NCBI RefSeq assembly: GCF_007785775.2
Contig: NZ_VNIK02000002.1
Span: 213,321 to 277,320 of the forward strand
Length of the DNA: 64,000 bases
Source: Flagellimonas hadalis
Lineage (GTDB): Bacteria; Bacteroidota; Bacteroidia; Flavobacteriales; Flavobacteriaceae
Direction: 5' to 3'
Shown here: positions 14,822 through 38,883 of the stretch, piece by piece
Position numbering within the stretch: the first letter of the stretch is position 1
Layout of the letters: each line of letters begins with the position of its first letter
The notes under the pieces: model-generated
Told to the model about the DNA's origin: nothing
The model's database searches: none
What the model saw: the letters and a program-made list of their open reading frames with translations, nothing else
Position numbers and translations under genes: made by a program

Positions 14822-15040
14822 AGTTGGGTCGATGAGGCTGCCCTTGCAAAGCAAGACCACCCAAACATATCAACTACAAAGCAAAAAAAGGAAGTTATGT
14901 TGTATTGCATCCATCATTTGTTGTGAAACATGGGATAAATGATGAAACCCATACCTCTTCACGAAATCTAACAAAACACGCCCTACAACTCAAGAATTTG
15001 AATCAAAAAATTGATGTTCAGTCCTTTAATTTTGTCCGTT

Positions 15041-15415
15041 CTATGTGCAATCCGGACAGGTGCCCGATAGTAGGCAGTTTACATCCTTTACCCTGTACCC
15101 TTCGGGGATTGAAAAATGTACCGATTCCCCCAAACATTCTATGGTATCGCAGGTGGTGCATCTGAAATGAAAATGATGGTTCGGTATCTTTTCGCCCTTG
15201 CAGTCCATACATACCGCAAAATACTGTTTGCCATCCTCGGCCACCACCTTGTGCACAATCCCATCATCACAAAATTGGTTCAGCACCCGATAGATGGTGG
15301 CCCTGTTGGCATCCACCTCGATTTCTTGCTCAATGGCATCGTGGCTCATGGCTTTCTGCCTCTGGGACAACAGCTTCAGGACAGCTTCTTTGGCTGGGGT
15401 TTTTCTTCGTTTCAT
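15041..15415 (-). CDS. Fur-family metalloregulator (Fur/Zur/PerR type)
   Basis: 124 residues, a short member of the family. The winged helix is at about 5-60 (ANRATIYRVLNQFCDDGIVHKV). The regulatory metal site is in HHFHFRCTTC (80-89), and two CxxC pairs, Cys86/Cys89 and Cys120/Cys123 (CPDC at the C-terminus), form the structural zinc site. It probably represses genes when its metal is plentiful. Which metal cannot be read from sequence; the zinc-like island downstream favours Zur. Its start lies 7 bp from a 23-bp dyad (15422-15444) that also covers the divergent promoter, so it likely regulates itself and the 15494 gene. Confidence 0.88.
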   Translation of the reverse strand: MKRRKTPAKEAVLKLLSQRQKAMSHDAIEQEIEVDANRATIYRVLNQFCDDGIVHKVVAEDGKQYFAVCMDCKGEKIPNHHFHFRCTTCDTIECLGESVHFSIPEGYRVKDVNCLLSGTCPDCT

Positions 15416-15421
15416 AAAATA

Positions 15422-15444
15422 TTAATGCGACTTTGTTGCAATAA
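15422..15444. promoter_or_regulatory. Dyad, likely operator of the Fur-family regulator
   Basis: Arms TTAATGCGAC (15422-15431) and GTTGCAATAA (15435-15444) around TTT match as inverted repeats at 8 of 10 positions. The size and AT-rich flanks suit a Fur-family dimer site. It begins 7 bp upstream of the regulator's own start and contains the -33 TTG of the divergent gene. Binding is inferred. Confidence 0.6.
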
Positions 15445-15465
15445 TAAAAATTATTTCTAATTTTG
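15436..15465 (+). promoter_or_regulatory. Promoter of the flavoprotein gene at 15494
   Basis: TTG at 15436-15438 and TAATTTTG at 15458-15465, 19 bp apart, match the Bacteroidota TTG-N19-21-TAnnTTTG promoter exactly. The -33 element is inside the dyad at 15422-15444, so a bound Fur-family dimer would block it. Confidence 0.65.
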
Positions 15466-15493
15466 GCAACTCCATCCCAAAATAAAACCACTT

Positions 15494-16402
15494 ATGGAAA
15501 AAGACAGGATTTTTGATGTGATCATAATCGGAGGCAGTTATGCAGGATTATCAGCTGCCATGTCCTTGGGACGATCGTTGAAGCAGACCTTGGTCATTGA
15601 CAGTGGTAATCCCTGCAATCAAAAAACACCCCATTCCCATAATTTTTTGACCCAGGATGGGAATACGCCCAGCGAAATCACATCATTGGCAAAACACCAA
15701 GTGGAGCAATATGCATCAGTGCATTTTTTTGAAGGTTTTGCTTCCGAAGGGATTCAAAAAGGCAATCAATTTGAGCTCAGAACCCAATCGGGGGACTCAT
15801 TTTTTGGGAAAAAATTGATCTTTGCCTCTGGCATCAAGGATATAATGCCCAACATCAAAGGATTTTCCGAGTGTTGGGGCAAAACCGTAATTCACTGCCC
15901 CTATTGCCATGGATATGAGTTCAAAAGCAAGAAAACCGGAATCTTTGCGCCGGCGGATCGGGCATTTCATTTGGCCTCTTTGGTGAACAACCTCACCCAT
16001 GACCTGACCATCCTAACGTCTGGGCCTGCTTCTTTTTCCCTGGAACAATCCCATACGTTGAAAAAGCACAATATCATTGTTGATGAAAGGGAGATTGGTG
16101 AAATCGAACATCAAAATGGACAAATGCAAAAGGTGGTATTCCAAAATGGTGAAAAACTCAATTTGGATGCGCTTTATGCCGCCGTTCCCTTTGAACAGCA
16201 TTCACAGATCCCGATGGAACTCGGCTGTGAACTTAATGAACAAGGGTACATCAAAACAGACATGTTCCAGCGGACCACAGTGGAGGGTATTTATGCCTGT
16301 GGCGACAACTCCAACCCCATGCGGTCAGTGGCCAATGCGGTACATTCTGGCAATTTTACAGGGGCTGTGGTAAACAAGGAACTGACCGAAGCTTCCTTTT
16401 AA
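15494..16402 (+). CDS. Thioredoxin-reductase-like FAD-dependent oxidoreductase
   Basis: 302 residues. FAD binding: DVIIIGGSYAGLSAAMS (8-24) and the C-terminal GIYACGDN. The redox pair is Cys135/Cys138 in HCPYCHGYEF, where thioredoxin reductases have CATC. The second dinucleotide motif GxGxxA/S, which binds NADPH in thioredoxin reductases, is absent: the region after the CPYC motif reads KTGIFAPADRAFH (148-159). CPYCHG plus a missing NADPH motif is seen in disulfide-forming flavoenzymes of the GliT/DepH kind, so it may be an oxidase rather than a reductase. It is divergent from the Fur-family gene and shares the control region, which suggests metal-dependent expression. Substrate unknown. Confidence 0.8.
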   Translation: MEKDRIFDVIIIGGSYAGLSAAMSLGRSLKQTLVIDSGNPCNQKTPHSHNFLTQDGNTPSEITSLAKHQVEQYASVHFFEGFASEGIQKGNQFELRTQSGDSFFGKKLIFASGIKDIMPNIKGFSECWGKTVIHCPYCHGYEFKSKKTGIFAPADRAFHLASLVNNLTHDLTILTSGPASFSLEQSHTLKKHNIIVDEREIGEIEHQNGQMQKVVFQNGEKLNLDALYAAVPFEQHSQIPMELGCELNEQGYIKTDMFQRTTVEGIYACGDNSNPMRSVANAVHSGNFTGAVVNKELTEASF

Positions 16403-16487
16403 GGAAATTATGTGCGGCCAAAATTCGAGATATGGCAAAAGTCCAACACAACTAACGGATTGCTGGTACCAAATGCGGTTTTTTTAA

Positions 16488-16495
16488 TATGTTTG
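16488..16495 (+). promoter_or_regulatory. -7 promoter element TATGTTTG
   Basis: TATGTTTG is an exact TAnnTTTG match 7 bp before the ATG at 16503, so the transcript would be nearly leaderless. No TTG is found at the expected 19-21 bp; the nearest is 25 bp away. Confidence 0.4.
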
Positions 16496-16502
16496 TAGTC
16501 TT

Positions 16503-16808
16503 ATGAAGGCATATCGTCTCAAAAATAGCATTTCCTTTATCTTTCTTGCCCTTTTTCTGGCAACGAAACTTATTGGGCTTCATGTGCTTACCCACCATGA
16601 CGATTCCGATTATGTGGACCATTGCGCCATCTGCCACAACATTGCCGCAGACAGCCATACTCCAGCCGTGCTTAGCGACCCTGGAGAACCTTTGTCCCCA
16701 ACCATTGAATTTGTCCTTCATCATAAAGTAGAAGCTGGGTACGATTTTCAAATTTCTTGCAACACTGATCCCAGCCTTCTTTTCTCTAGACCTCCCCCTT
16801 CTGTCTAA
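16503..16808 (+). CDS. Small His/Cys-containing exported protein
   Basis: 101 residues, family not recognised. The N-terminal hydrophobic segment (about 10-30, ISFIFLALFLATKLIGLHVL) is a signal or anchor. Right after it comes a metal-ligand-rich patch: HVLTHHDDSDYVDHCAICHN, with five His and a CxxC within about 22 residues, and more His later (DSHTP, FVLHHK). It lies 0.2 kb upstream of the TonB receptor on the same strand. Small His/Cys-rich proteins often precede metal-related TonB receptors in Bacteroidota, so a metal-binding or sensing role is plausible but inferred. Confidence 0.6.
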   Translation: MKAYRLKNSISFIFLALFLATKLIGLHVLTHHDDSDYVDHCAICHNIAADSHTPAVLSDPGEPLSPTIEFVLHHKVEAGYDFQISCNTDPSLLFSRPPPSV

Positions 16809-17010
16809 CCCATCCCTTTTTTCTTTGTTCGCTGTTTGAACAGTTCCATTCCACGATTGGAATTGTGTTGCTTTCGTCGCAACCCATTTGTTGTCAGAAA
16901 GTAAGATAATCTGTTGATTTTCAGTTTAATACACTACAAAGACTTAGGGAAGACCAACAGTGTTAAAGCCTCCATGTGGGGGCAATTGCAAGAAATTTTA
17001 GTTTCCCATA

Positions 17011-19380
17011 ATGTTCAAAAACATGCTCGTGGCATGGCTGTTCATCAGTCTGTGCACACACGCATCCGCACAGGACACCTATACCTTGAGAGGGATGATT
17101 GTGGATGCAAATACCCAAAAGCCCATAGTTGGAGCCAATATTATTGGTAAAAACCTATATGCCGTTTCAGCCGAAAATGGAGAGTTCACGATGGGCAAAG
17201 TGCCCAATGGCACTCATCGTTTTGAAATTACCCATATAGGCTATGCCACGGAACAGCTCACCATAGCCATAACTGGCGACCTGGAGAATGTGGTGGTCCA
17301 ACTCAAAGAGGCCGTCACCAGCCTAGATGGTGTGGAGCTGATGGGCAAGACCGAGCAACGCAAGGCACAGGAACTCTCCACCATAACCGTGGGGGTTTCC
17401 AAGGAATTTTTGGAGAACAACAGGGAAAACAGTTTGATGCAGACCCTACGGAAAATCCCTGGGGTGAGCACCATCACCATTGGTTCGGGACAGTCCAAGC
17501 CTGTCATAAGGGGGTTGGGGTTCAACAGGGTCAGCGTGGTACAGAACGGCATCAAACATGAAGCACAGCAATGGGGCAACGACCACGGGCTGGAAATCGA
17601 TCAATACGGCATTGACAACATCCAGATCATCAAAGGGCCTGCCTCTTTGCTCTATGGTTCCGATGCCATTGCCGGAGTAGTGGACATCCAACCTCCCAAG
17701 ACCCCCATGCCCAATTCTTTTGAGGGGGAAGTAAACCTGTTGGGAGAGACCAACAATGACCTTTTTGGTATTTCTACAGGGATACAGGGCCGGAAAGAGC
17801 AATGGTTCTATAGGGGCAGATTGACCTACAGGGACTACGGTGACTACAAAGTGCCCGCCGATCGAATCAATTATGAAAACTACATTTTTGAACTGCATGA
17901 AAACCACTTGAGAAATACCGCAGGAAGAGAGGCCAATGCCAGTTTCAGCATCGGCTTTGTATCCGATCATATCAAATCCGAGACCTTTTTCAGCAATGTG
18001 AACGCCAAGAACGGTTTTTTTGCCAATGCGCATGGGCTGGAGGTGCGAAATTCTTCCATTGACTATGACAGTTCCATCAGGGACGTGGATTTGCCCTTCC
18101 ATCAAGTGAACCATATAAAAATAACCAACAATACCACATTCTACAGGGGAGACCACACTTTGCAGGTAGATCTTGGTTATCAAAACAACCAAAGGGAAGA
18201 ACGCTCAGAGCCAGTGCCCCATGGTCATATGCCTACCCCTCCCGATAGTAGGGAACGAATCTTTACCAAAAACACCTATTCCCTGAACGTACAGGACACC
18301 TATCGTCCGAATGCCGAACATGACCTGATCTTCGGGGTAAATACAGAATTCCAGAACAATAATATTGGCGGATGGGGATTTTTGATCCCTACCTACGATC
18401 GGTTTACCGTGGGAGCTTTCGTGTTTGACCATTTCAGGATACACGAAAACCTTCATGTGCAAGGCGGCCTTCGGTACGATGTGGGTCTTGTGGATACCCG
18501 ATCGCATTTTGATTGGTGGCAAACTCCCATCAACAATCCAGATGGCACCACTTCCTATGTGTATGTGCAACGTGCACAGGACAGACGTCTGGAATTTGGC
18601 AATTTCAGTGGTTCCATTGGGTTGAGCTACCTCAACAAGAACACTACGTACAAAATCAATTTGGGGAAAAGTTTTAGGATGCCCTTGGCCAACGAACTGG
18701 CCTCGGATGGGGTCAACTATCACATGTACCGATATGAACGGGGGAACATTGACCTGGACCCGGAACAGTCCTACCAATTGGACGTGGGTGTGGACCACTC
18801 CACCACGAAGTTCAATTTAGGGGTCAGCCCTTTCATCAATTTCTTTGAAAACTTCATCTACCTGAACCCCACGCCCAATTATTATGAGACGCTCCAAATC
18901 TATGAATACACGCAGAGCAAGGTCATCCGGTTTGGGGGCGAGGCAAGGGCAGGTATCAACATGACCGACGCCCTGCGTTTGGATGCTTCCGTAGAATATG
19001 TGTATTCCAGACAGACGAGTGGACCCAAAAAAGACTTTACGCTGCCCTTTTCCCCTCCCCTGTCCGGGCTGTTCTCTGCAAGCTATCGGTTCAGGGACAT
19101 TGCCTTTTTTAAATCCCCACAACTCATGGCCGATTTAAGGGTAACGGCCGCACAGAACGACATCGTCCCGCCCGAGGAGAAAACAGAGGGCTATCAAGCC
19201 CTGAACATATCGGCCATGATCGGAATCCACCTTTTTGGAACGGAAAAACCGACCCAATTACGCATCAAGCTGAACAATGTGTTCAACACCGAATATTACG
19301 ACCATACCAGTTTTTATAGGCTCATTGATGTTCCCGAACCTGGCAGGAACCTATCCATTTCAATGACCGTTCCATTTTAA
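17011..19380 (+). CDS. TonB-dependent outer-membrane receptor (probable metal or metallophore uptake)
   Basis: 789 residues. Signal peptide to about 20 (THASA-QDT), then a carboxypeptidase-regulatory-like domain (LRGMIVDANTQKPIVGANII, 25-110), the plug (about 120-235: LRKIPGVSTITIGSGQSKPVIRG broken here for length, RVSVVQNGIKHEAQQWGNDH, IIKGPASLLYGSDAIAGVV) and a 22-strand-type barrel ending in an aromatic residue (MTVPF). No SusD partner is nearby, so it is not a polysaccharide locus. The HEAQQWGNDHGLEID segment and the His-containing loop PVPHGHMPTPPD are compatible with metal import. It is followed 39 bp later by the DUF4625 lipoproteins and probably heads their operon. The substrate is inferred from context only. 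Confidence 0.88.
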   Translation: MFKNMLVAWLFISLCTHASAQDTYTLRGMIVDANTQKPIVGANIIGKNLYAVSAENGEFTMGKVPNGTHRFEITHIGYATEQLTIAITGDLENVVVQLKEAVTSLDGVELMGKTEQRKAQELSTITVGVSKEFLENNRENSLMQTLRKIPGVSTITIGSGQSKPVIRGLGFNRVSVVQNGIKHEAQQWGNDHGLEIDQYGIDNIQIIKGPASLLYGSDAIAGVVDIQPPKTPMPNSFEGEVNLLGETNNDLFGISTGIQGRKEQWFYRGRLTYRDYGDYKVPADRINYENYIFELHENHLRNTAGREANASFSIGFVSDHIKSETFFSNVNAKNGFFANAHGLEVRNSSIDYDSSIRDVDLPFHQVNHIKITNNTTFYRGDHTLQVDLGYQNNQREERSEPVPHGHMPTPPDSRERIFTKNTYSLNVQDTYRPNAEHDLIFGVNTEFQNNNIGGWGFLIPTYDRFTVGAFVFDHFRIHENLHVQGGLRYDVGLVDTRSHFDWWQTPINNPDGTTSYVYVQRAQDRRLEFGNFSGSIGLSYLNKNTTYKINLGKSFRMPLANELASDGVNYHMYRYERGNIDLDPEQSYQLDVGVDHSTTKFNLGVSPFINFFENFIYLNPTPNYYETLQIYEYTQSKVIRFGGEARAGINMTDALRLDASVEYVYSRQTSGPKKDFTLPFSPPLSGLFSASYRFRDIAFFKSPQLMADLRVTAAQNDIVPPEEKTEGYQALNISAMIGIHLFGTEKPTQLRIKLNNVFNTEYYDHTSFYRLIDVPEPGRNLSISMTVPF

Positions 19381-19419
19381 TTAAATCAAATGAAGTATAA
19401 CACCAAAAACAAAAGAAGA

Positions 19420-20199
19420 ATGAAAACAAATCTTAAACCTTTAGCAATTGTCGCCTTTTTGGGAATCCTGTCCTACTCTTGTAGCAGTGATGACGAAGGC
19501 ACACCTCCTGTAGCCGCCCCCGTAATCTCAAATTTTGAATATGGTGAGGGTAGCAGCCATTCCGAAGACCAAGTCGCCTACAAAGGATCTGACATCCATC
19601 TGGAAGCAGAGATCACGGCAGAAGGAACGGTAAGCAGCATTTCCATTGATATCCATGCCCATGACCTCGAAGTGGGCGAAGGGGAAGTGGAATGGGATTT
19701 TGAACAGACCTTTACCGATGCCAGTTATTTGGTCATCAACCCCACTTTCCATGAGCACATCGATGTTCCTTCCAACATTCCAGCAGGTGAATACCATGTT
19801 ACCTTGACCGTAACGGATGAGTTGGGCAACAGCACAGAGGCTGAAGGCCATATTCAGATTTTGGACCCGATCACACTGAGTGAAATTTCCATCAGCGAGA
19901 CCGTTGTACGTGGTACCGATTTCCATACTGAGTTTGTGATATCTGCCGTAAATGGCATCCACCAGATTACCGTGGATGTACACGCCCATGACCTTGAAGT
20001 TGGCGAAGGAGAAGTGGAATGGGATTTTGAGAACATCTATTCCGAAGGATATCATGAGCTCACCGAAGCGGAGTTCCACGAGCATATAGATGTGCCGGAA
20101 ACGGCCCCTGCGGGTGAATACCATATCATTTTCACTGTTGAAGATGAGGATGGGAACACTGTGGAATATGAAACCCATATCGATGTGACCGCATCATAG
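19420..20199 (+). CDS. His-rich lipoprotein with two tandem DUF4625 domains
   Basis: 259 residues from the ATG at 19420, which begins a clean lipoprotein signal (MKTNLKPLAIVAFLGILSYSC); an ATG at 19390 adds ten basic residues. Two homologous domains follow, each with HAHDLEVGEGEVEWDFE and FHEHIDVP...AGEYH. The DNA of the two copies is still close to identical over about 45 bp, a sign of recent internal duplication. The HxH, HEH and acidic residues suggest a metal-binding surface lipoprotein working with the upstream receptor. DUF4625 has no established function that I know of. Confidence 0.8.
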   Translation: MKTNLKPLAIVAFLGILSYSCSSDDEGTPPVAAPVISNFEYGEGSSHSEDQVAYKGSDIHLEAEITAEGTVSSISIDIHAHDLEVGEGEVEWDFEQTFTDASYLVINPTFHEHIDVPSNIPAGEYHVTLTVTDELGNSTEAEGHIQILDPITLSEISISETVVRGTDFHTEFVISAVNGIHQITVDVHAHDLEVGEGEVEWDFENIYSEGYHELTEAEFHEHIDVPETAPAGEYHIIFTVEDEDGNTVEYETHIDVTAS

Positions 20200-20239
20200 C
20201 CCAAAATCAATCATACAGTACAACCTTAAACCACATCAA

Positions 20240-21070
20240 ATGAAACACATAGCAAGACTTTTATTCTTTGCAATCCCGCTTATCTTTTTGGCATCGTGTA
20301 GCAGTGATGACGATGCGCTGGACCCACAAGGGGACATCAACCCGGAACGATTTGAGAACCTTGAGATTGGAAATGCCGATTTTAAAGTGCCCCAAGCCAA
20401 TCCGGACCTTCACACACAGTTCGATTATACCGGAAAGCAAAAGGTCACGGAAATATATTTTGACATTGAGTCGGTAAACATCCAAACTCCGGTCGGTGAT
20501 GAAGTGGACTGGAACATTTCCAACCATTTGATCCCAAAGGACTACTATGAGGGCCAGATCAACCCACATGTCCATTATCATGTGCTGTTCGACCCCCAGA
20601 ATGAATTCATCCCAAGCACCCGCCCAGCGGAAGGCGTCTATAAATTGACCATTACCGTAGTCGAGGAAGATGGTTCAGAGAGCGTACTTTCCAAGGAGTT
20701 TGAGGTTGTAAAAAGGTTTTTTGATGTGGAAGTCGGGCATGATGGACACGTTCATTTTGGCAGTGATGAACTCCATACCGAATTTGAATATCAGGCGGGG
20801 GACAACACCGTCAACGAAATAACCTTCGAACTGTGGTTTGAGGAATGGCGTGAAGGACAAAATGTTCCAGTGGGCAGTTGGGACAAAGTGCTGCACACGC
20901 TGCCCGAAGAGCTCTATGAGAATTCGAGCAACCCACATATCCATTACCACATGTCCATCGACCCAGAATTTCCAGTGGGCAATTACTGGTTGAACATCTA
21001 CGTAAAGGATTCCGGTTCGGAAGAGGCCGTAAAACTGTCCGTGCCCTTTAGTGTGGTTATGGACGAATGA
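20240..21070 (+). CDS. His-rich DUF4625-type lipoprotein
   Basis: 276 residues. The lipoprotein signal ends LIFLASCSSDDD. Two DUF4625-like halves carry NPHVHYHVLFDP and NPHIHYHMSIDP at matching places, plus VGHDGHVHFGSDELH in the middle; the HxHYH motifs make strong candidate transition-metal sites. It is a diverged relative of the preceding gene, 40 bp away, and the next one, so the cluster has three different DUF4625 lipoproteins. Expected at the outer membrane, perhaps passing metal to the TonB receptor or buffering it in the periplasm (inference). Confidence 0.8.
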   Translation: MKHIARLLFFAIPLIFLASCSSDDDALDPQGDINPERFENLEIGNADFKVPQANPDLHTQFDYTGKQKVTEIYFDIESVNIQTPVGDEVDWNISNHLIPKDYYEGQINPHVHYHVLFDPQNEFIPSTRPAEGVYKLTITVVEEDGSESVLSKEFEVVKRFFDVEVGHDGHVHFGSDELHTEFEYQAGDNTVNEITFELWFEEWREGQNVPVGSWDKVLHTLPEELYENSSNPHIHYHMSIDPEFPVGNYWLNIYVKDSGSEEAVKLSVPFSVVMDE

Positions 21071-21091
21071 TTGCAAACAATAGCTTAATAC

Positions 21092-21118
21092 GCCGCACGG
21101 CTTTAAAAACTGTGCGGC
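21092..21118 (+). other. GC-rich intercistronic hairpin
   Basis: GCCGCAC (21092-21098) and GTGCGGC (21112-21118) form a perfect 7-bp stem between two lipoprotein genes. No T-tract follows. It may end or protect the upstream message, or tune expression of the third lipoprotein. It also argues against starting that gene at the ATG at 21067. Confidence 0.5.
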
Positions 21119-21135
21119 CAATTAAAATTTCAATA

Positions 21136-21615
21136 ATGAAAACATTTTCAAAACGGTTCTTTCCACTTTTGTCCATCATGTTGCTGTTCGCATGCTCAAG
21201 CAGTGATAACGGGGATATTGATGAGGACAAACCTACCATCAGCGTAAACTATGCCGAAGGATTCCCACAGGCCTGTGAAACACTGGAAAGGGGACAGACC
21301 TACTCCTTTCGGGCACAAGTTACGGACAATGTGGCACTGGCCGCCTATAGCGTGAACATCCACCACAACTTTGACCACCATACCCATGATGACCAAGGTG
21401 CACAGTGCGACCTGGAACCAGTAAAAACAGCCATCAACCCCATGATGTTCATGGAAAACCATGCCATTGAAGGAGGGGTGACCTCTTATGAGATCAACCT
21501 TTCCATCACTATTCCGGATGACGTGGATCCCGGGGATTACCACTGTGCTTACTCCGTGACCGACCAGACCGGTTGGCAGAGTAGGACTTCGGTGGACATC
21601 AAAATTGTGGATTGA
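21136..21615 (+). CDS. Single-domain His-rich DUF4625 lipoprotein
   Basis: 159 residues from the ATG at 21136, which starts the lipoprotein signal MKTFSKRFF...LLFACSSSD; the frame is open back to 21067 but that would run through the hairpin. One DUF4625 domain with NIHHNFDHHTHDDQGAQC, six His within 11 residues plus Asp and Cys, and a later DYHCAYSVTD. This is the most ligand-dense of the three lipoproteins. It lies 29 bp before the ABC-transporter ATPase, so receptor, lipoproteins and transporter appear to be one transcription unit. Confidence 0.8.
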   Translation: MKTFSKRFFPLLSIMLLFACSSSDNGDIDEDKPTISVNYAEGFPQACETLERGQTYSFRAQVTDNVALAAYSVNIHHNFDHHTHDDQGAQCDLEPVKTAINPMMFMENHAIEGGVTSYEINLSITIPDDVDPGDYHCAYSVTDQTGWQSRTSVDIKIVD

Positions 21616-21644
21616 TCCACTTTCAACTTTAAAACTTTCAAATT

Positions 21645-22361
21645 ATGATATCAACTAAGGATCTGACCAAAAAGTTCGGTGATCTCACAGCAGTGGACCA
21701 TCTTTCCCTTTCAGTAAAAGAAGGTGAGCTTCTGTGCCTATTGGGAGCCAATGGTGCCGGAAAGTCAACCACCATAAACATGCTGTTGAATTTTGTGGCC
21801 CCTACCTCTGGATCGGCCACAATAAATGGCCTGGATGCGACCAGACATCCTATCAAGACCAAGGAATTCATCACCTATATCCCAGAAAATCTGATGCTGT
21901 ATCCCATGCTCACGGCCATTGAAAACTTGGACTACTTCTCGGGCATTACAGGCAGACAATTGGCGCAATCCAGTTTAACTGGTTTTTTGGAAGAGGCCGG
22001 CCTTCAAAAAGACGCCTTCCACAAACGGATATCGACCTTTTCAAAGGGAATGCGGCAAAAGGTGGGCATTGCCATTGCACTGGCCAAGGACACCAAGGTG
22101 CTCCTGTTGGACGAACCGACTTCGGGACTGGATCCCAAGGCAAGCAACGAATTTGGAAATCTATTGCAAAAGCTGAGGGGCAAGGGGGTCGCCATCCTCA
22201 TGGCCACCCACGATCTGTTCAGGGCCAAAGTGGTGGCCACCCACATTGGTATCATGAAAGATGGCAAGCTGGTGCAGCAGTTCGTTGCCGACGATATTTC
22301 GCTCCCCCAATTGGAGAAAACCTACCTGGAAACCATGAACTATAAAGAAGTTTTGTCATGA
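21645..22361 (+). CDS. ABC transporter ATP-binding protein (ABC-2/NosF type)
   Basis: 238 residues. Walker A LLGANGAGKSTT (about 31-42), a Q-loop region with YIPENLMLYPMLTAIENL, signature ISTFSKGMRQKVGIA in place of LSGGQ, Walker B KVLLLDEPTSGLDP and a switch His in MATHDLFR. The FSKGM signature is typical of ATPases paired with ABC-2 permeases such as NosF. It overlaps the permease start by 4 bp (ATGA) and forms one transporter with the two following membrane proteins. Direction and substrate are not known; ABC-2 systems are mostly exporters or complex-assembly factors. Confidence 0.92.
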   Translation: MISTKDLTKKFGDLTAVDHLSLSVKEGELLCLLGANGAGKSTTINMLLNFVAPTSGSATINGLDATRHPIKTKEFITYIPENLMLYPMLTAIENLDYFSGITGRQLAQSSLTGFLEEAGLQKDAFHKRISTFSKGMRQKVGIAIALAKDTKVLLLDEPTSGLDPKASNEFGNLLQKLRGKGVAILMATHDLFRAKVVATHIGIMKDGKLVQQFVADDISLPQLEKTYLETMNYKEVLS

Positions 22362-23764
22362 TCATCAAAACCTTTGTCAAGGAAACCAAGGAATCGTGGA
22401 GGGATGGGCGAGTGCGCATCGCTTTCCTGATCGTCCTCTTACTTTTGGCCATGGCCGTTTGGGTCGGTGTCCGCCAGTACCAAAATGTTAATGAACAGTA
22501 CAGAACGGCAAAAAATACGGAAAGGATCTTGTGGGACAACCAAGGGGAAAAGAACCCGCATTCCGCTGCCCACTATGGCACTTATGCCTTCAAGCCCAAA
22601 TATCCCTTGTCATTGGTGGATCAAGGTGTGGACAAATATGTGGGCACCTCCATTTTTTTAGAGGCCCACAAACGAAATGAAGCGCAGTTCAGTGCCGCCG
22701 CGGACCAAACAGGTTTGGCCCGGTTCGGGGACCTTACCCCGGATTTCATCCTATTGTTCATCATTCCATTGCTCATCATCCTGCTTGGGTACAATAGTTT
22801 TACCAAAGAACGGGAAATGGGAACCTATACCCTTCTTAAGAGCCAAGGGGCCTCCAATTGGAAATGGGCCATGGGCAAATGGATGTCCCTCTTCATTCCC
22901 ATATTTGCCATTACCGCACTATTGTTCCTCATAACAGGCATTCTATTGTCCAATCTCAAGGATTTCGGGGTGTTTAAATGGCAATCGCTGCTCACCATGT
23001 TTGTCATCTACATGGGCTATTACATCATATTCATCAATATTGTTTTGATCATTTCATCAAGGGCAAAAAAATCCGGGATAGCCTTGGTACTGTCCCTTTC
23101 CGTCTGGATTTTGGCCTGTCTCGCCGCTCCAAAGGCCGCCAGCAACATTGCCGAGGCCAAACACCCCTACCCCACCCGACAGGAATTTGCCGCCAATGTG
23201 CTAAAGGACAAAAAGGATGGCTTGGACGGACACAATCCTTGGAGCAAGGAATCAAAATTATTGGAACAGCAAGTCCTGGCCGAGCATGGGGTGGACAGCC
23301 TTCACCAATTGCCCTTCAATTTTGACGCCTACCGGATGCAAAAAGGGGAGGAACATGAGGCCGAAGTATATTTCAAACATTACAATTACCTAAAAGACCA
23401 GTTTGCCCAACAATCCAAAGTGTATAAAGGGTTGGCCATCATCTCTCCCTATCTCCCCACCCGTTTTCTGAGCATGGCGGTCGCACAGACCGATTATGCC
23501 ACACATTGGGATTTTGCGGATGCTGCGGAGGATTATCGTATTGCTACACAGAAATTCTTGAACGATCATTTTGCGGAAAATTCCAATTATGGGGATTGGT
23601 CCTATCAGGCCGATGCCAATTTTTGGGTAGGGCTGCCCAGCTTTGAATATGACCCACCGGAGTTGGGAGAAATCCTTACCGACAACACGTCCAGCCTTTG
23701 GATCCTAGGGGCATGGCTGGCTCTTTCCTTCAGCATTCTTCTCATTACCACCAAAACGATATGA
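22358..23764 (+). CDS. ABC-2 permease with DUF3526-like periplasmic domain (1)
   Basis: 468 residues. One membrane segment at about 20-38 (RIAFLIVLLLLAMAVWVGVRQY), a large extracytoplasmic part, then a cluster of segments (about 128-260) and a last one at the C-terminus (ILGAWLALSFSILLITT). Sequence NSFTKEREMGTYTLLKSQG in the first cytoplasmic loop is the conserved ABC-2 motif contacting the ATPase. A second long periplasmic region (about 265-440) is characteristic of DUF3526-type permeases. It pairs with the next gene as a heterodimer. Confidence 0.82.
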   Translation: MIIKTFVKETKESWRDGRVRIAFLIVLLLLAMAVWVGVRQYQNVNEQYRTAKNTERILWDNQGEKNPHSAAHYGTYAFKPKYPLSLVDQGVDKYVGTSIFLEAHKRNEAQFSAAADQTGLARFGDLTPDFILLFIIPLLIILLGYNSFTKEREMGTYTLLKSQGASNWKWAMGKWMSLFIPIFAITALLFLITGILLSNLKDFGVFKWQSLLTMFVIYMGYYIIFINIVLIISSRAKKSGIALVLSLSVWILACLAAPKAASNIAEAKHPYPTRQEFAANVLKDKKDGLDGHNPWSKESKLLEQQVLAEHGVDSLHQLPFNFDAYRMQKGEEHEAEVYFKHYNYLKDQFAQQSKVYKGLAIISPYLPTRFLSMAVAQTDYATHWDFADAAEDYRIATQKFLNDHFAENSNYGDWSYQADANFWVGLPSFEYDPPELGEILTDNTSSLWILGAWLALSFSILLITTKTI

Positions 23765-25194
23765 CCATGTTACGATACAATTTTATTTATGAATTACGGA
23801 TTTTGTTGCGCAGTCGTTGGATCCAATTGCTGAGCCTCCTCTTGTTGCTGCTTTTTGGCTTTTCAGCATTCAACGGGAAAGAAAAAGTAGAAAAAAGAAA
23901 GGTGGATATTGCTGCAGCCAAACAGGAAGTACTCGATACCGACCAATCCATGCTGAAATTGTTGGATTCCGTGGAGCGGGGCATGGCCGTAAGTGCCTCT
24001 CCCTGGACCATCCCCACCAGTCCCATGGCTGTGGCCAACTATTACCCAAGAGTGGTGGCCATGGATCCGCAGCCTATGGCTTTCGTTTCTACAGGGCAGG
24101 CCGATATCTTCACCCATTATGTGAAACCGACCGCAACTGGGGATGACTTTGCATTGAATTTTACGGAAATGACCAGTCCCGTGCAACTACTCTTCGGTAG
24201 TTTTGACTTGGCCTTTGTGATCGTTTATTTGCTGCCCTTGTTGATCATCGCCTTTTCGTACAACGTGCTCTCGTCTGAAAAAGAATCTGGCTCATTGCGT
24301 TTGTTGGCGTCACAGCCCATATCCATCCGAAAATGGGTGTTCCAGAAACTTATCCTCCGATTTTTCTGGCTGTCCGTTCTGGTAGTGACCACATTGGTGT
24401 TGGTAATTCTGATCGTGGGCATTCAACCGTTGGAATGGAGCAAGGTATTTGGTTTATTGGGCCTGGCCCTGAGCTATATGCTCTTCTGGTTTTCCCTGGC
24501 GTTCCTGGTGAACCTGTATGTGGGGAGTTCGGCCAAAAATGCCGTTTCCCTCTTGGGTCTATGGGTTGTCTTTGTGCTATTGGTGCCCTCGGTCCTAAAC
24601 CAATTGGCGGGAACCCTATACCCAATGCCCTCAAGGACCCTCATGATCAATGAAATGCGCGAGCGTAAAGTAGAAGCCACCAAAAGACAGGATGAGATCT
24701 TGGACAACTTCCTCCGGGACCATCCAGAATATGCCATAAACGATTCGACACAGACCCGAAGTTTCTACCACAACTATATGGCTTCCCAAAAAGTGGTGAA
24801 AGAAGAATTGGCACCCATTGTGAACGCCTACGAAACGCAGTTGAAAAAACAACAATCCTGGTCAAGGCAATTGCAGTGGACCTCCCCCGCTATCGTGGTG
24901 CAGGAATCCCTGAACAATCTATCCGGGACCTCAACGGCAGATTATGAAAACTACCGAAGGCAAGTCATCGCCTTTTCAGAATCATGGAGGGAACACTTCA
25001 TGTCCTTTTTGTACAACAACACCCTATTCAAGAGTGAGGACCATACCAATCTGCCACAGTTCCAATACCATGCCCTTGGCCAAAGTGGCGTTCCCAAAGC
25101 AATCCTGATCCTATTGGCGATGGCATTGGTCCTGTTGGGTCTAGGTTTTGCAGTACAGGGCGCGACGCGGCAAAAAGGAATATTGGCCGATTGA
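23761..25194 (+). CDS. ABC-2 permease with DUF3526-like periplasmic domain (2)
   Basis: 477 residues from the ATG at 23761, which overlaps the previous stop as ATGA; an in-frame start upstream at 23698 would lie inside the previous gene and is rejected. Same plan as its neighbour: N-terminal segment (LLSLLLLLLFGFSAF), loop, segment cluster with the SSEKESGSLRLLASQPIS motif, long periplasmic domain and final C-terminal segment (ILILLAMALVLLGLGFAV). The two permeases look like ancient paralogues. Their large periplasmic faces could dock the lipoproteins encoded upstream (inference). Confidence 0.82.
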   Translation: MTMLRYNFIYELRILLRSRWIQLLSLLLLLLFGFSAFNGKEKVEKRKVDIAAAKQEVLDTDQSMLKLLDSVERGMAVSASPWTIPTSPMAVANYYPRVVAMDPQPMAFVSTGQADIFTHYVKPTATGDDFALNFTEMTSPVQLLFGSFDLAFVIVYLLPLLIIAFSYNVLSSEKESGSLRLLASQPISIRKWVFQKLILRFFWLSVLVVTTLVLVILIVGIQPLEWSKVFGLLGLALSYMLFWFSLAFLVNLYVGSSAKNAVSLLGLWVVFVLLVPSVLNQLAGTLYPMPSRTLMINEMRERKVEATKRQDEILDNFLRDHPEYAINDSTQTRSFYHNYMASQKVVKEELAPIVNAYETQLKKQQSWSRQLQWTSPAIVVQESLNNLSGTSTADYENYRRQVIAFSESWREHFMSFLYNNTLFKSEDHTNLPQFQYHALGQSGVPKAILILLAMALVLLGLGFAVQGATRQKGILAD

Positions 25195-25246
25195 TATTAT
25201 TACAAATACTAAAAGCTTAAGCAAGAATCTGTATAAACGAAATAAA

Positions 25247-25642
25247 ATGAAAATAAAAAATCCGACTTACGATATCATCGCCCTATCCAGTTCACTGATC
25301 TGCGCCATCCATTGCGCAGCGGTCCCCATTGTGCTATCCTTCTCCTCTTTGGCAAGTCTCCATTTTTTACACCATCCGCTCATTGAGTGGTCATTCATTG
25401 CTATCGGGGTGGTATTTGTCTTTGTTTCCCTTTGGCCAAGCTATAAAAAGGCCCATTACAAACTGAAACCATTGCTCATTGCCGGCTGTGGTTTTGGTCT
25501 GATCGCCCTGGGCAGGTTGGATTTGAATGAACTCTGGGAAGTGGCCAATACCGTAACGGGAGCCCTGATGGTTTCGGTGGCCCACTATGTGAACTGGAAA
25601 CTGCTTCGTGCGACGGGCAACCATACCAACTGTAAATCCTGA
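25247..25642 (+). CDS. MerC-domain membrane protein
   Basis: 131 residues from the ATG at 25247. Four membrane segments; the first contains SSLICAIHCAAVPIVLSF, where Cys and His in CAIHC match the MerC pattern of metal-binding residues in helix 1. A Cys is also present in the third segment (IAGCGFG) and at the C-terminus (HTNCKS). MerC proteins of mercury operons import Hg(II), but Bacteroidota carry relatives beside metal-uptake genes with no other mer genes, as here, so transport of a nutrient metal such as zinc is more likely (inference). Confidence 0.8.
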   Translation: MKIKNPTYDIIALSSSLICAIHCAAVPIVLSFSSLASLHFLHHPLIEWSFIAIGVVFVFVSLWPSYKKAHYKLKPLLIAGCGFGLIALGRLDLNELWEVANTVTGALMVSVAHYVNWKLLRATGNHTNCKS

Positions 25643-25698
25643 GGAATGGAAAATCCATCCTTCAATTTTCGAAGAACTTGACAAATACCCCATAATTT

Positions 25699-26328
25699 AT
25701 GGTAAGGACGAGTAATCTAAAATTCGAATACGATAAAAAAAGTGAGCAGTTCCGTTTTCCTGATATTTCTTTGGATGCGTCCCAGAACCTCCTGATCTTG
25801 GGAAAATCCGGAATCGGCAAAACCACCCTGCTGCACCTGTTGGCAGGCTTGTTGCCTCCCATGGATGGCAGCATCGAAATTGACGGGGTTCCCATCCACA
25901 CCCTTTCAAATAGACAGTTGGACAGGTTCAGGGGACAGAACATCGGGATTGTGTTCCAAAACAACCATGCCATCCAATCCCTCACCGTCATAGAGAATTT
26001 AGAGGCCAGGCTTTTCTTTGCCCAAAAAACCATCTCTCAAACCGTGATCAAGGACTTATTGGAACACCTTGACATCTCGGATTGCAAAAACAAAAAAATC
26101 AGGGAGTTGAGCGAAGGACAATTGCAACGTTTGGGCATCGCCATGGCAATGGTACACCATCCGCAGATCATATTTGCTGATGAGCCCACCTCCAGTTTGG
26201 ACGATGACAATTGCACCAAGGTAATGCAACTTTTGATTGAGCAAGCCGAGATGAACAGTGCCAATTTAATTGTAATAACACATGACCAGCGCATAAAACC
26301 TTTGTTCACCAAAACACTGGCATTATGA
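25699..26328 (+). CDS. ABC transporter ATP-binding protein (LolD/MacB-like; zinc-locus type)
   Basis: 209 residues. Walker A LGKSGIGKTTLLH (about 34-46), Q-loop GIVFQNNHAIQSLT, signature LSEGQLQRLGIA, Walker B IIFADEPTSSLDD, switch His THDQR. It overlaps the FtsX-type permease by 4 bp (ATGA). LolD/MacB-type ATPases drive mechanotransmission or lipoprotein extraction rather than solute channels. The order ATPase, permease, small secreted protein is that of the Zur-regulated PA4064-PA4066 genes of Pseudomonas aeruginosa. Confidence 0.9.
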   Translation: MVRTSNLKFEYDKKSEQFRFPDISLDASQNLLILGKSGIGKTTLLHLLAGLLPPMDGSIEIDGVPIHTLSNRQLDRFRGQNIGIVFQNNHAIQSLTVIENLEARLFFAQKTISQTVIKDLLEHLDISDCKNKKIRELSEGQLQRLGIAMAMVHHPQIIFADEPTSSLDDDNCTKVMQLLIEQAEMNSANLIVITHDQRIKPLFTKTLAL

Positions 26329-27536
26329 ACATTTGGAAAATCAGTTTAAGAAATTTTAGGTTCAAGCCCCTTTACACTTTTTTGGGCATCCTAACGCTAT
26401 CGGTAAGCATTGCCCTTCTTGTAGGAATCCAACAATTGGATAAATCTTTCAGGGGGCAATTGGACAACAATTTGGGAGAAATCGATATGGTTGTGGGAGC
26501 CAAGGGAAGCCCTCTCCAACTGGTACTCGCATCCGTGCTCCATATAGACAATCCAACGGGAAACATTCCTTTTGAAGAAGCGAAGGGACTGATGAAAAAC
26601 CCCATGATCCAAAAAGCCGTGCCCATCTCTTATGGCGATAATTTTAAAGGATATAGAATTGTGGGCACCACCGATGACTTTGCCACGCTCTATAGCGCAA
26701 GCATAACACACGGTCGATCTATGGAAAAACCCATGGAAGTGGTCCTTGGGGCTTCCGTGGCCGAAAAATTGGGGCTTCGCATCGGGGACACCTTCCAAAG
26801 TTCCCACGGACTGATTGAAAAGGGCGCACATACGCATGAAGAACCTCTCACCGTGGTGGGCATCTACAACACGACCCACAAAGTATTGGACCGTTTGATT
26901 GTTACCGGATTGGAGACCATTTGGGAAGTGCATCACCATGAAGAGGAGCATAAAGAAGAACATCAGGAGGAAGGAGAAGAGGAACATGAGCAGGAAATCA
27001 CATCATTGTTGGTCTCTTTCAGGAATCCCATCGCACTGCTGACCGTCCCCCGCAGTATCAACGAAAACACCAATATGCAGGCAGCCCTGCCCAAATTTGA
27101 ACTGGAACGTCTGTACCAGTTTACAGGTGTTGGGGTAAAAACGATCACTTGGATAGCCTATGCGATTTTGGTCATTTCCTGCATCACCATATTCATAAGC
27201 CTGTACAGAATGGTACGCGATCGGGCCTTTGACCTGGCACTCATGCGAAGCTATGGGGCCAATAGGTTCCAATTGGCAAAAATGGTACTATATGAAGGTG
27301 TTTTGATGGCCGGGACCGCCTTTCTCATGGGTATCCTCTTATCGCAGATCGGCGTCTTTTTCATTTTTGAAATGATAGCGGACCAATACAAACAAACCAT
27401 GCCGCTCCAACTCAAATACCAAGAAGTATTGCAAACAGGAGTGTTGGTTTTGTCGATGGTCTTGTTGTCCATCGCACTTGCCATTTACCCCCTCATTAAA
27501 ATGAACATCTCCAAAATATTGAGTCATGAAAAATAA
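26325..27536 (+). CDS. FtsX/LolC-type ABC permease with His/Glu-rich periplasmic loop
   Basis: 403 residues. First membrane segment at about 17-37, a large periplasmic MacB_PCD-like domain, then three segments (about 272-392), the FtsX plan. Near the start of the periplasmic domain is IDMVVGAKGSPLQLVLASV followed by HIDNPTGNIP, a stretch I recall as conserved in permeases of the proteobacterial PA4065/ZrgB group. An acidic His-rich run (about 206-227, HHHEEEHKEEHQEEGEEEHE) projects into the periplasm and is a strong candidate metal-binding loop. It likely works with the ATPase upstream and the 27526 protein. Confidence 0.85.
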   Translation: MNIWKISLRNFRFKPLYTFLGILTLSVSIALLVGIQQLDKSFRGQLDNNLGEIDMVVGAKGSPLQLVLASVLHIDNPTGNIPFEEAKGLMKNPMIQKAVPISYGDNFKGYRIVGTTDDFATLYSASITHGRSMEKPMEVVLGASVAEKLGLRIGDTFQSSHGLIEKGAHTHEEPLTVVGIYNTTHKVLDRLIVTGLETIWEVHHHEEEHKEEHQEEGEEEHEQEITSLLVSFRNPIALLTVPRSINENTNMQAALPKFELERLYQFTGVGVKTITWIAYAILVISCITIFISLYRMVRDRAFDLALMRSYGANRFQLAKMVLYEGVLMAGTAFLMGILLSQIGVFFIFEMIADQYKQTMPLQLKYQEVLQTGVLVLSMVLLSIALAIYPLIKMNISKILSHEK

Positions 27537-27963
27537 AATCCTTGTCGCCTTCTTCTTTCTATCCTCCGCAGCCTGTTTCTCGCAAACAGAAATAACATGG
27601 TGGGATTTGTCCCGTATCAATTATACGGAAAAGTATTTTCCAAGCTACGGGGAATATTTTTTGTACCCAGAATTTAGTGAACGGATGAAGTCCCTTGAAG
27701 GCAAGAAAGTATCCATTACTGGCTTTTTTTTGGATATAGACCCTAGTGGCAAACTGTTCATCCTTTCCAAAAACCCCATGGCCTCCTGCTTTTTTTGTGG
27801 TATGGGAGGGCCAGAAACGGCCATGGAAATTCAATTTAAATCGAAACCGGGTTTCAAAACCGATGATATTCTTCATGTCACCGGCATACTGAAGCTCAAT
27901 GCAGATGATGTACAACACTTTAATTACATCCTTACCGATTGTGTTGCCCAAAAAATGAAATGA
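27526..27963 (+). CDS. Secreted DUF3299-like protein of the zinc-type ABC locus
   Basis: 145 residues; signal peptide to about 19 (AACFSQ), overlapping the permease end by 11 bp. The body looks like a small OB-fold-type beta barrel: GKKVSITGFFLDID, FILSKNPMASCFFCGMGGPET, HVTGILKLN. The CFFCG pair and a late Cys (ILTDCVAQK) could bind metal or form a disulfide. Proteins of this kind sit after the ABC permease in proteobacterial zinc loci (PA4066 in P. aeruginosa, zrg genes in Vibrio). Assignment to DUF3299 itself is by resemblance and position, not by a search. Confidence 0.7.
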   Translation: MKNKILVAFFFLSSAACFSQTEITWWDLSRINYTEKYFPSYGEYFLYPEFSERMKSLEGKKVSITGFFLDIDPSGKLFILSKNPMASCFFCGMGGPETAMEIQFKSKPGFKTDDILHVTGILKLNADDVQHFNYILTDCVAQKMK

Positions 27964-27986: not shown

Positions 27987-29399
27987 ATGAACAGAAGAAA
28001 ATTTTTCAGGAACGGAACACTATCAGCCTTGGGAGCTTCCCTTTTTGCTCCATTCGAATCTATTAGGGCTTCCGACTTTGAGGATGGCTGGAAACGGAAA
28101 AAGGCCAAGAACATCATTATGCTGGTCAGCGATGGCATGAGCACGGGCACCCTGAACATGGCCGACCTCTATCTTTCCAGAAAAACGGGAAAGGGCAGCA
28201 ACTGGTTGAACCTGTATCGGGAAAATAAAGTTTCACGTGCCCTGATGGACATGGCGTCGGCAAGTTCCATCGTCACCGACTCTGCTGCTGCCAGTTCATC
28301 ATGGGGAGGTGGTGTCAGGATCAAGAACGGCGGCATCAATATTGGAGTCAATGGCGAAGCCCATCTTCCCATATGGCAAAAATTCAAGGCTGTCGGCAAA
28401 AAGGCCGGATGCGTGACCACGGTTCCCATTACCCATGCGACCCCTGCTGGGTTTTGTGTGAACGAAAAATCCAGAAATGACCAAGAATCCATTGCTGAAA
28501 AATATCTGGAGCACGGTTTTGATGTACTGATGGGTGGGGGCAACGAATACTTTGCGTCGGATAAGCGAAAAGATGGAAAAAATATGTACGCCGCCTTTGA
28601 AAGCAATGGCTATTACGTAGCCCAGACCAGAAATGAAATGTTGGCCGCCCCGAAGGACCAATCCATCTTGGGTGTTTTTACCAATAATGGCCTACCCTAT
28701 GCCAAGGATCGGGAAAACAATGGAGAACTAAAGGAAAGCACCCCCAGTTTGGCCGAAATGACCCAAAAGGCCATTGATAATCTAAAGGGCAGCCCCAAAG
28801 GGTTCGTGCTCCAAGTTGAAGGAGGGAAAGTGGACTGGGCCGCCCATGCCAACGACATTGCCGGGTTGATCTATGATCAAGTTGCCCTTGATGAAGCCAT
28901 CCAAGTTGCCATGGATTTCGCAGAAAAGGACGGGGAGACCTTGGTGATCATCACTACCGACCATGGAAATGCCAACCCTGGGGTCATCTATGGGAACTAT
29001 GCCAATGACCATTTTGATTCCATCCAAAACTACAAGCACACCAACGAATGGATTTTGAACGGTATCGGTAGGGAAACATCCGTAAGCAGTGTGAAAGAGC
29101 GTGTGGAATATGCCAACGGCTTTGAGTTGACGGACGGGGAAGCCAATACACTTTTGGGGTATTACGGTTCCCTCAATGCCGAAGATGGTTTGTACAATCC
29201 CAAGCACTTGCCTTTCAGTGCTTTGGCCGAAATCCAAAAACAACATAACTCAGTGGGTTGGATCAGCATGCAGCACTCCGCCGATTATGTGGAACTGGCC
29301 ATGTACGGCCCTGGAAGCCAATTGTTGAAGCCTTTTTTGAAAAATACCGAACTACACTATCTCATGCTCGAAGCCGCAGAGGTAGAGAATACTTTTTAA
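27987..29399 (+). CDS. Alkaline phosphatase (PhoA superfamily), Tat-type signal
   Basis: 470 residues. The N-terminus MNRRKFFRNGTLSALGAS has a twin-arginine RRKFF motif, so export of a folded metalloenzyme is likely. Active-site pieces: Asp49 (MLVSDGMS), nucleophile Ser99 (VTDSAAAS), VEGGKVDWAAHAND (Glu, Asp and His metal ligands), TTDHGN and a late His in QHSADYVEL. These bind two Zn and one Mg in PhoA-type enzymes, which hydrolyse phosphomonoesters at the envelope. It starts 23 bp after the zinc-type locus on the same strand and may be co-transcribed. No Pho-box-like repeat is evident. Confidence 0.92.
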   Translation: MNRRKFFRNGTLSALGASLFAPFESIRASDFEDGWKRKKAKNIIMLVSDGMSTGTLNMADLYLSRKTGKGSNWLNLYRENKVSRALMDMASASSIVTDSAAASSSWGGGVRIKNGGINIGVNGEAHLPIWQKFKAVGKKAGCVTTVPITHATPAGFCVNEKSRNDQESIAEKYLEHGFDVLMGGGNEYFASDKRKDGKNMYAAFESNGYYVAQTRNEMLAAPKDQSILGVFTNNGLPYAKDRENNGELKESTPSLAEMTQKAIDNLKGSPKGFVLQVEGGKVDWAAHANDIAGLIYDQVALDEAIQVAMDFAEKDGETLVIITTDHGNANPGVIYGNYANDHFDSIQNYKHTNEWILNGIGRETSVSSVKERVEYANGFELTDGEANTLLGYYGSLNAEDGLYNPKHLPFSALAEIQKQHNSVGWISMQHSADYVELAMYGPGSQLLKPFLKNTELHYLMLEAAEVENTF

Positions 29400-38836: not shown

Positions 38837-38882
38837 GCTAAGGAGCTTTTATCTAATTGTTCAATTTTATAAAAGCTTTAGC
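38837..38882 (+). promoter_or_regulatory. Leader hairpin covering the metE ribosome site
   Basis: GCTAA + AGCTTTTAT (38837-38841, 38844-38852) pair with ATAAAAGCT + TTAGC (38869-38882), a 14-bp stem with a 2-nt GG bulge, ending 1 nt before the ATG. The 5' arm contains AAGGAG, a rare strong Shine-Dalgarno sequence in this genome. It may control translation together with the riboswitch. Confidence 0.6.
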
Positions 38883-38883
38883 A

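Follow-up and report, generated by a model that had tools for sequence, protein, structure and literature searches.

What is the purpose of a run of genes in which a Fur-family regulator, a flavoprotein, a TonB-dependent receptor, three lipoproteins and two kinds of ABC transporter stand together, and which metal would it serve? The question is raised by a locus of Flagellimonas hadalis (Bacteroidota; Flavobacteriaceae) that begins at position 15,041 of a 64,000-nt stretch of contig NZ_VNIK02000002.1 (positions 213,321 to 277,320 of the forward strand; hereafter the window, whose coordinates are used throughout). An earlier note had proposed a zinc (or similar metal) uptake system, and our analysis supports it in part: judged from sequence, the locus is likely to be a zinc-starvation operon of this flavobacterium under the control of Zur, a reading that draws on a Zur-like regulator, a candidate Zur box and the recurrence of ZigA/COG0523, FolE and AztD-like neighbors in related loci.

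The island comprises a Fur-family gene on the minus strand followed by 13 plus-strand genes through 27,963, 14 in all rather than the thirteen of the earlier note, whose own list sums to 14. In plus-strand order these encode a flavoprotein, a small His/Cys membrane protein (SMALL), the receptor, the three lipoproteins (types D1, D2 and D3), an ABC-2 ATPase with two permeases (ABC1-P1-P2), a MerC-family protein, a LolD/MacB-type ATPase (ABC2), an FtsX-type permease and a small secreted protein (SEC). The families that had been named are present (Fur at 42 bits, Pyr_redox_2, TonB receptor, ABC_tran with two ABC-2/DUF3526 permeases, MerC at 76 bits, and ABC_tran with MacB_PCD/FtsX and the secreted protein). 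From the receptor to 27,963, as had been reported, adjacent genes are separated by 29-65 nt or overlap by 4 or 11 nt (ATG starts picked by eye). The one-strand run is longer than described: the flavoprotein and SMALL genes share the strand, with gaps of 100 and 202 nt, and the unit continues to 31,656 with two more genes, set off by intervals of 23 and 25 nt, which encode an alkaline phosphatase (PhoA) and a DUF5916 protein and which recur there in relatives. The closest named relatives of the unit's proteins are mostly from Flagellimonas and Allomuricauda/Muricauda, and the composition, previously called unusual, is ordinary (GC 0.40-0.49 per island gene versus 0.39-0.51 per 2 kb over the whole window). 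The earlier observation is sound, with small corrections needed.

The regulator is Zur-like by sequence comparison. A profile built from 17 relatives out of neighboring loci and searched against solved chains ranked E. coli Zur (4mtd, 4.6e-13), 3mwm, 7vo0 and M. tuberculosis FurB/Zur (2o03) above Fur and PerR chains; the entries 3mwm and 7vo0 are titled putative metal uptake regulator, and we take both to be Streptomyces Zur. Regulator residues H55, which is invariant, and C69, which is nearly so, align with H77 and C88 of E. coli Zur, presumably ligands of its regulatory zinc site. Between the regulator and flavoprotein genes lies the candidate Zur box, TGCGACTTTGTTGCA, a one-letter variant (it has a G) of the consensus palindrome TGCAAC-N3-GTTGCA and the sole exact match to TGCRACNNNGTYGCA across the 4.07 Mb, 57-contig source genome. 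It is followed by TAATTTTG, which we take to fit the consensus of the flavobacterial -7 element. The box and the A+T stretch downstream of it are preserved in Allomuricauda pb2 (L100; L-numbers denote the stretches fetched), and the other two gaps have drifted (by eye). Single-mismatch sites in the source genome mean little, because they number 16 versus 12 for the reversed pattern; of the 15 that were read, 14 lie inside an open reading frame (ORF) and one outside. One such site, TGCAATAGAGTTGCA at L180:4168 (source genome C56:179167), stands at the start of a DUF6660 ORF ahead of an RND efflux gene and may be a second Zur target, or chance; Zur activates RND efflux in Caulobacter.

Table 1. 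Features of the locus, in window coordinates
Feature	Position	Strand	Basis
Zur-like Fur-family regulator, 124 aa	15041..15415	-	Pfam FUR 42 bits; 17-relative profile
Candidate Zur box TGCGACTTTGTTGCA	15426..15440	.	Within the 78 nt separating regulator and flavoprotein
Possible -7 element TAATTTTG	15458..15465	+	19 nt after a TTG within the box; fits flavobacterial consensus
Flavoprotein, HCPYCHGYE motif, dithiol-oxidase-like (DepH/GliT/HlmI group)	15494..16402	+	phmmer against PDB
Small His/Cys membrane protein (SMALL), C-terminus SRPPPSV	16503..16808	+	Relatives precede TonB or ABC-2 genes elsewhere
TonB-dependent receptor, ZnuD-like	17011..19380	+	NCBIfam ZnuD best; PDB best ZnuD
Lipoprotein, two DUF4625 domains	19420..20199	+	PF15418 201 bits
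Diverged DUF4625-like lipoprotein, HVHYH and HIHYH motifs	20240..21070	+	19.8 bits, below cut-off 27
Lipoprotein, one DUF4625 domain	21136..21615	+	PF15418 148 bits
ABC-2 ATPase (ABC1)	21645..22361	+	ABC_tran 103 bits
ABC-2/DUF3526 permease 1 (P1)	22358..23764	+	PF12040 98 bits
ABC-2/DUF3526 permease 2 (P2)	23761..25194	+	PF12040 95 bits
MerC-family membrane protein	25247..25642	+	PF03203 75.7 bits
LolD/FtsE/MacB-type ATPase (ABC2)	25699..26328	+	ABC_tran 108 bits; LolD 150 bits, cut-off 308
MacB/LolCE-type permease, His-rich loop	26325..27536	+	MacB_PCD and FtsX
Small secreted protein (SEC), CFFCG	27526..27963	+	CFFCG invariant in 19-sequence alignment
Alkaline phosphatase (PhoA), part of syntenic unit	27987..29399	+	PF00245 237 bits
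DUF5916/CBM9 protein, part of syntenic unit	29425..31656	+	PF19313 and PF06452

Is the box a recurrent feature of such genes? In 120 related loci (2.40 Mb), picked for their genes, the exact palindrome occurs 35 times and the reversed pattern not once, and at 26 of the 35 sites a labeled family gene is the nearest downstream neighbor on at least one side (Fur, MerC-like, FolE, COG0523, flavoprotein, DUF4625, SMALL, SEC, ABC1, DUF5916 and one weak TonB). When one mismatch was allowed, with the window included and divergent genes sharing a region, the box was found ahead of 15/21 Fur genes, 7/10 MerC-like genes (family F30), 6/10 flavoprotein genes, 3/3 MerC genes, 5/22 D1 and 7/25 D3 genes of the DUF4625 group, 1/2 FolE, 1/6 SEC, 3/20 ABC2, 1/19 DUF5916 and 3/48 SMALL genes, and ahead of none of the P1 (0/5), D2 (0/2), FtsX (0/1) or CobW2 (0/1) genes; in letter shuffles the corresponding value was 0.000 for every family except ABC2 (0.005). 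A search of 198 Bacteroidota genomes made without any choice of genes yielded 65 exact sites, spread over 44 genomes; the reversed pattern gave 18, in 17 genomes. Family members were present in 11 of 30 pattern-picked loci (six with Fur, four of these together with a MerC-like gene, one AztD-like and four TonB) and, among 38 control pieces, in 3 (p 0.006); with TonB and flavoprotein excluded, the counts were 7/30 and 2/38 (p 0.04). Two of the three matching control pieces had been fetched by the very family matched. The exact box was also found in 11/18 genomes with strong DUF3526 matches versus 33/180 others (p 0.0002, uncorrected for kinship).

The receptor resembles Neisseria ZnuD, which is both its closest named TonB family and its closest solved structure (5e-20); it differs in scoring far under the family cut-off and in having three lipoprotein genes behind it. 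Of the three DUF4625 lipoproteins that had been announced, the first and third are secure, whereas the second, which scores under the family cut-off, is a diverged relative at best. Homologues numbered 386 for the first and 48 for the second. Several histidines per domain are invariant among 45 aligned homologues of the first lipoprotein, whose AlphaFold model is nearly all-beta (mean pLDDT 87.5, with 210 of 269 residues at or above 90). At least two acidic residues occupy positions +2 to +6 after the lipid cysteine in 43/45 homologues of the first lipoprotein and 47/48 of the second, a pattern similar to the published surface-export signals SDDDD and SDDFE (PMC5080379). Because their signals are of this surface-export type, the DUF4625 proteins probably catch metal outside the cell, as surface-exposed partners of the receptor rather than as the proposed replacement for a His-rich periplasmic binder. 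DUF4625 occurs in 58/296 genomes of the order and 17/296 of the phylum. In 40 stretches read from 35 of the 66 genomes with matches (weaker places being mostly excluded), a TonB gene lies within two genes on the same strand in 31, 13 of which also have a Fur gene. XusA/XusB of Bacteroides likewise pairs a TonB receptor with a lipoprotein that binds a metal complex (PMC12574912). That system handles iron-enterobactin, and the likeness is one of arrangement, with no kinship of its lipoprotein to DUF4625 implied.

The ABC-2 transporter, which had been regarded as an extra, is a recurrent partner of TonB receptors. In 80 ABC-2 loci of named genomes, all fetched by permease 1, ABC1-P1-P2 are contiguous in 79. 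Permease 1 has 1541 homologues, the 120 matches listed being 74-99% identical. Its H68, H72, H104, H292 and H341 are kept in 12-14 of 14 proteins from two phyla (three of them from Proteobacteria) and would face the periplasm; in permease 2, no histidine is kept in more than 9 of the 14. On plasmids, a TonB gene stands beside an ABC gene and two DUF3526 genes in six of the seven annotated loci opened, out of 11 matches; the six are from Eleftheria, Blastomonas, Hymenobacter (two), Aureibacter and Spirosoma, and the exception is from Methylocystis. In the window, the receptor and the ABC-2 genes are separated by the three lipoprotein genes. Caulobacter, the sole DUF3526 carrier among 14 control genomes, provides a published counterpart: znuK (TonB) and znuGHI (an ABC-2 ATPase and two permeases) have consecutive gene numbers, are directly repressed by Zur and rise 12- to 41-fold in a zur mutant (PMC4176598). 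CC1519 and CC1520 are presumably the DUF3526 proteins of Caulobacter. Given this counterpart and the recurrent adjacency to TonB genes, the ABC-2 transporter is a TonB partner of a kind already known. The systems differ in that the part of the Caulobacter study drawn on here mentions no DUF4625, MerC, MacB-type trio or flavoprotein beside these genes, and in the Zur box, which is about GTTAT-N3-ATAAC there versus TGCAAC-N3-GTTGCA here (PMC4176598). The source genome contains a single weak ABC-3 match, which we read as FecCD-type, with genes for a binding protein and an ATPase next to it, and ZIP-family matches as well; Caulobacter is the one control genome without ABC-3. In several loci, the ABC-2 genes are flanked by two small genes, the first of about 157 aa and the second of 165-179 aa (L123:12868-13877 and L110:6852-7825). 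The L123 pair has no Pfam match, and these may be new zinc-starvation genes.

The neighbors of the DUF4625 and ABC-2 genes point to zinc. Strict zinc markers (Fur, COG0523, FolE, AztD-like and CobW-like genes) occur in 28 of the 80 ABC-2 loci, with two or more kinds in 9; COG0523 and FolE paralogues have been tied to Zur regulons (PMC2770081). The fullest relative found, L100, shows the entire island with its order unchanged, save that a COG0523 gene holds the MerC position, a place that a COG0523 GTPase takes in five relatives (L100, L103, L107, L112 and L147); the source genome has no cobW-family match except one in a 1174-aa frame. In L057, one run includes genes for a MerC-like protein, a FolE-like protein and two GTPases, of which one is ZigA-like (565 bits against a cut-off of 600) and the other CobW-like, and eight loci of one genus encode His-rich lipoproteins of a single family, the L062 member being AztD-like (83 bits against a cut-off of 400); the NCBIfam scans covered L057 among the COG0523 genes and L062 among the eight AztD-like genes. 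In a comparison of neighborhoods, which the earlier note had called for, L100 and the order ABC2-FtsX-SEC-PhoA in 6 of the 80 loci speak for a unit; in many relatives, single modules occur with no zinc markers. With ABC1-P1-P2 contiguous in 79/80 loci and the latter order in 6/80, the grouping of the genes is more than chance.

The ATPase, permease and secreted protein that close the island had been compared with P. aeruginosa PA4063-PA4066 and Vibrio ZrgABCDE. The likeness is one of architecture, a separate ATPase, a MacB/FtsX-type permease and a small secreted protein in a zinc-starvation setting, and the published work treats PA4064-PA4065 themselves as an exporter of the MacB type with a connection to pyochelin (PMC11481552). 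The comparison stands for the ATPase and permease pair, which is LolD/MacB-like at scores below the family cut-offs. As to the third protein, a structure of PA4066 exists (PMC11481552), and SEC gave no significant match among solved PDB chains, as single sequence or as profile, so that its identification with PA4066 has no support. Nor is a separate His-rich binder recognized, the family scans of the unit genes naming no family of the PA4063/ZrgA type (PA4063 itself was not aligned). Instead, a His-rich loop, HHHEEEHKEEHQEEGEEEHEQE, lies within the permease itself and is visible in an alignment of 11 sequences. The phosphatase is closest to solved alkaline phosphatases and adjoins SEC in L057, L065, L100, L101, L103, L107, L112 and L147. 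Alkaline phosphatase is a zinc enzyme, and its place at the end of a presumed zinc-starvation unit, kept in relatives, is puzzling. DUF5916 is present in 56 of the 80 ABC-2 loci, directly behind P2 in 38.

What the earlier note had listed simply as a flavoprotein, a family that is present, is more specifically a DepH/GliT-type protein. Its top matches in the PDB are the uncharacterized 3fbs (4e-54, 187 bits) and 4fk1, titled putative thioredoxin reductase (6e-43, 151 bits), followed by DepH (2e-40, 142 bits), GliT (6e-39, 138 bits) and 4ntd (1e-36, 130 bits); the last is titled thioredoxin reductase, and we take it to be HlmI. The reading as a classical thioredoxin reductase is rejected, as the thioredoxin reductase 3cty scores 88 bits (1e-23) against the 142 of DepH and 138 of GliT. 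The HCPYCHGYE motif, with CPYC as its CXXC, is common to the flavoprotein, DepH and 3fbs. The protein groups with the DepH/GliT/HlmI dithiol oxidases and is predicted to share their activity. In P. aeruginosa, exposure to gliotoxin induces the DepH-group protein DnoP (PA4170) 313-fold, and zinc starvation activates it as well; DnoP confers protection from disulfide toxins that chelate zinc (PMC11317636). The likeness rests on membership of the DepH group, with its CXXC, and not on a direct alignment with DnoP; it extends to setting, DnoP being induced by zinc starvation and the window gene adjoining the candidate Zur box. In contrast to DnoP, whose induction has been placed downstream of, or parallel to, Zur (PMC11317636), the window gene has the box directly before it. 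A DnoP-like gene first behind a candidate Zur box is the most interesting single detail of the locus. The SMALL protein encoded by the next gene has no Pfam or NCBIfam match. Proteins of its type (window, L060, L072, L108 and L117) share H...H, CxxC and a terminal R(P/A/G)PP (by eye) and precede TonB or ABC-2 genes; in the Eleftheria locus L226, DUF2946 occupies this position.

For induction, protein location, ligand and direction of transport, we propose the following scheme. Zinc-loaded Zur would repress from the box that separates zur from the flavoprotein gene, and would leave it as zinc falls, so that the genes are expressed. His-rich DUF4625 lipoproteins at the surface may bind zinc, free or in a complex, and deliver it to the ZnuD-like receptor, by analogy with other TonB-lipoprotein pairs of the phylum. 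In the periplasm, the ABC-2 transporter, as the counterpart of ZnuGHI and with the histidines of permease 1, could pass on zinc or its carrier, MerC being a second possible inner-membrane step, and the LolD/MacB-type pair might export or shuttle something, perhaps a chelator or a lipoprotein. The dithiol oxidase encoded by the first gene of the operon would re-oxidize, and so disarm, zinc-chelating disulfide antibiotics, and the operon may thereby also protect the cell against them. We advance tentatively, and give somewhat less than an even chance to, the fuller proposal that TGCAAC-N3-GTTGCA is the Zur box of much of Bacteroidota and that the operon joins zinc uptake (surface DUF4625 proteins, a ZnuD-like receptor and a ZnuGHI-type ABC-2 transporter, in a genome without recognizable ZnuB) to DnoP-like disarming of zinc-chelating dithiol antibiotics.

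Several results weigh against a Zur-controlled zinc operon. Between 15,000 and 31,700 there is no second place with two or fewer mismatches to the box, and with a single box in the unit, read-through from the flavoprotein promoter across the 100- and 202-nt gaps must be assumed. In the related loci, with one mismatch allowed, the box precedes few TonB (6/47), ABC1 (7/85) and COG0523 (2/13) genes and no P2 (0/34) or PhoA (0/11) gene; many of these modules sit inside operons. The exact box is missing from 154 of the 198 genomes, the source genome included since its copy carries a G, and 13 of the 30 pattern-picked sites fall within ORFs; the comparison of pattern-picked loci with controls is indicative, because the controls are mostly pieces of the source genome. 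The receptor reaches 156.7 bits against the NCBIfam ZnuD model NF038289, whose cut-off is 950, and can thus be called ZnuD-like only. In phmmer searches, the receptors of the six plasmid cassettes and those of L112 and L120 gave no match to it, so that the cassette partners with different receptors. Nine of the 40 DUF4625 stretches lack a TonB gene within two genes on the same strand. We do not claim the ABC-2 transporter as a ZnuABC substitute, as the two show no exclusion across the 198 genomes: the ZnuB family is found in 6/18 DUF3526 genomes versus 81/180 others (p 0.46; sets drawn by hand at about 50 and 100 bits).

Might the unit instead take up another metal or metal complex, such as copper, nickel, cobalt or haem, with the Fur protein sensing that metal? 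In a single-sequence search, the top matches of the regulator are Fur chains, with Zur chains close behind; the next solved relatives of the receptor are copper porins (OprC), and it also resembles haem receptors; MerC and His-rich proteins can bind several metals. Mutants of PA4065 showed altered cobalt, not zinc (PMC11481552). The Zur-type ranking of the regulator profile and the recurrent ZigA-like, FolE and AztD-like neighbors, several of them behind the same box, argue for zinc, and we regard another metal as improbable. A chance pile-up of unrelated operons, in which only the TonB-DUF4625 pair is metal-related, is more improbable still: the modules do separate in many genomes, and 52 of the 80 ABC-2 loci have no strict marker, which counts against the zinc reading as well, but L100 repeats the full order, the trio occurs with PhoA in 6/80 loci and the box precedes several modules separately. 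The most serious competitor, which we consider unlikely and which is compatible with zinc control, holds that the two transporters, ABC-2 and MacB-type, serve to export a zincophore or to remove a chelator, that the receptor retrieves the zinc-loaded form and that there is no separate metal importer. Both transporter families are mostly exporters, and a dithiol oxidase lies in the same operon. PA4064-PA4065 have been modeled as a MacB exporter of pyochelin (PMC11481552). By family, none of the unit's genes belongs to small-molecule biosynthesis (the remainder of the genome was not searched), and a zinc-starvation operon under Zur is the reading that we prefer.

The surroundings of the unit hold two further genes. 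Just to its left (10676-14860) is a gene for a large repetitive protein of 1394 aa with a gliding-type C-terminal domain (by eye), and 7 kb past it (38857-41154) lies a gene for cobalamin-independent methionine synthase (Meth_synt_1 and 2), which is a zinc enzyme. A cobalamin-independent methionine synthase is also upregulated in the Caulobacter zur mutant (PMC4176598).

Zinc acquisition in Bacteroidota has been little described. In the open-access literature searched, we found no earlier Bacteroidota Zur regulon and no mention of DUF4625 or DUF3526, and the main text of a 2018 review of Zur regulons contains no words starting with bacteroid or flavobacter. According to a report on ZntR of the flavobacterium Riemerella, no previous work had addressed zinc genes in that organism (PMC11960050). 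A Zur box that can be tested, a role for the DUF4625 lipoproteins and a direct tie of zinc uptake to protection from zinc-chelating antibiotics would make the zinc biology of the phylum accessible.

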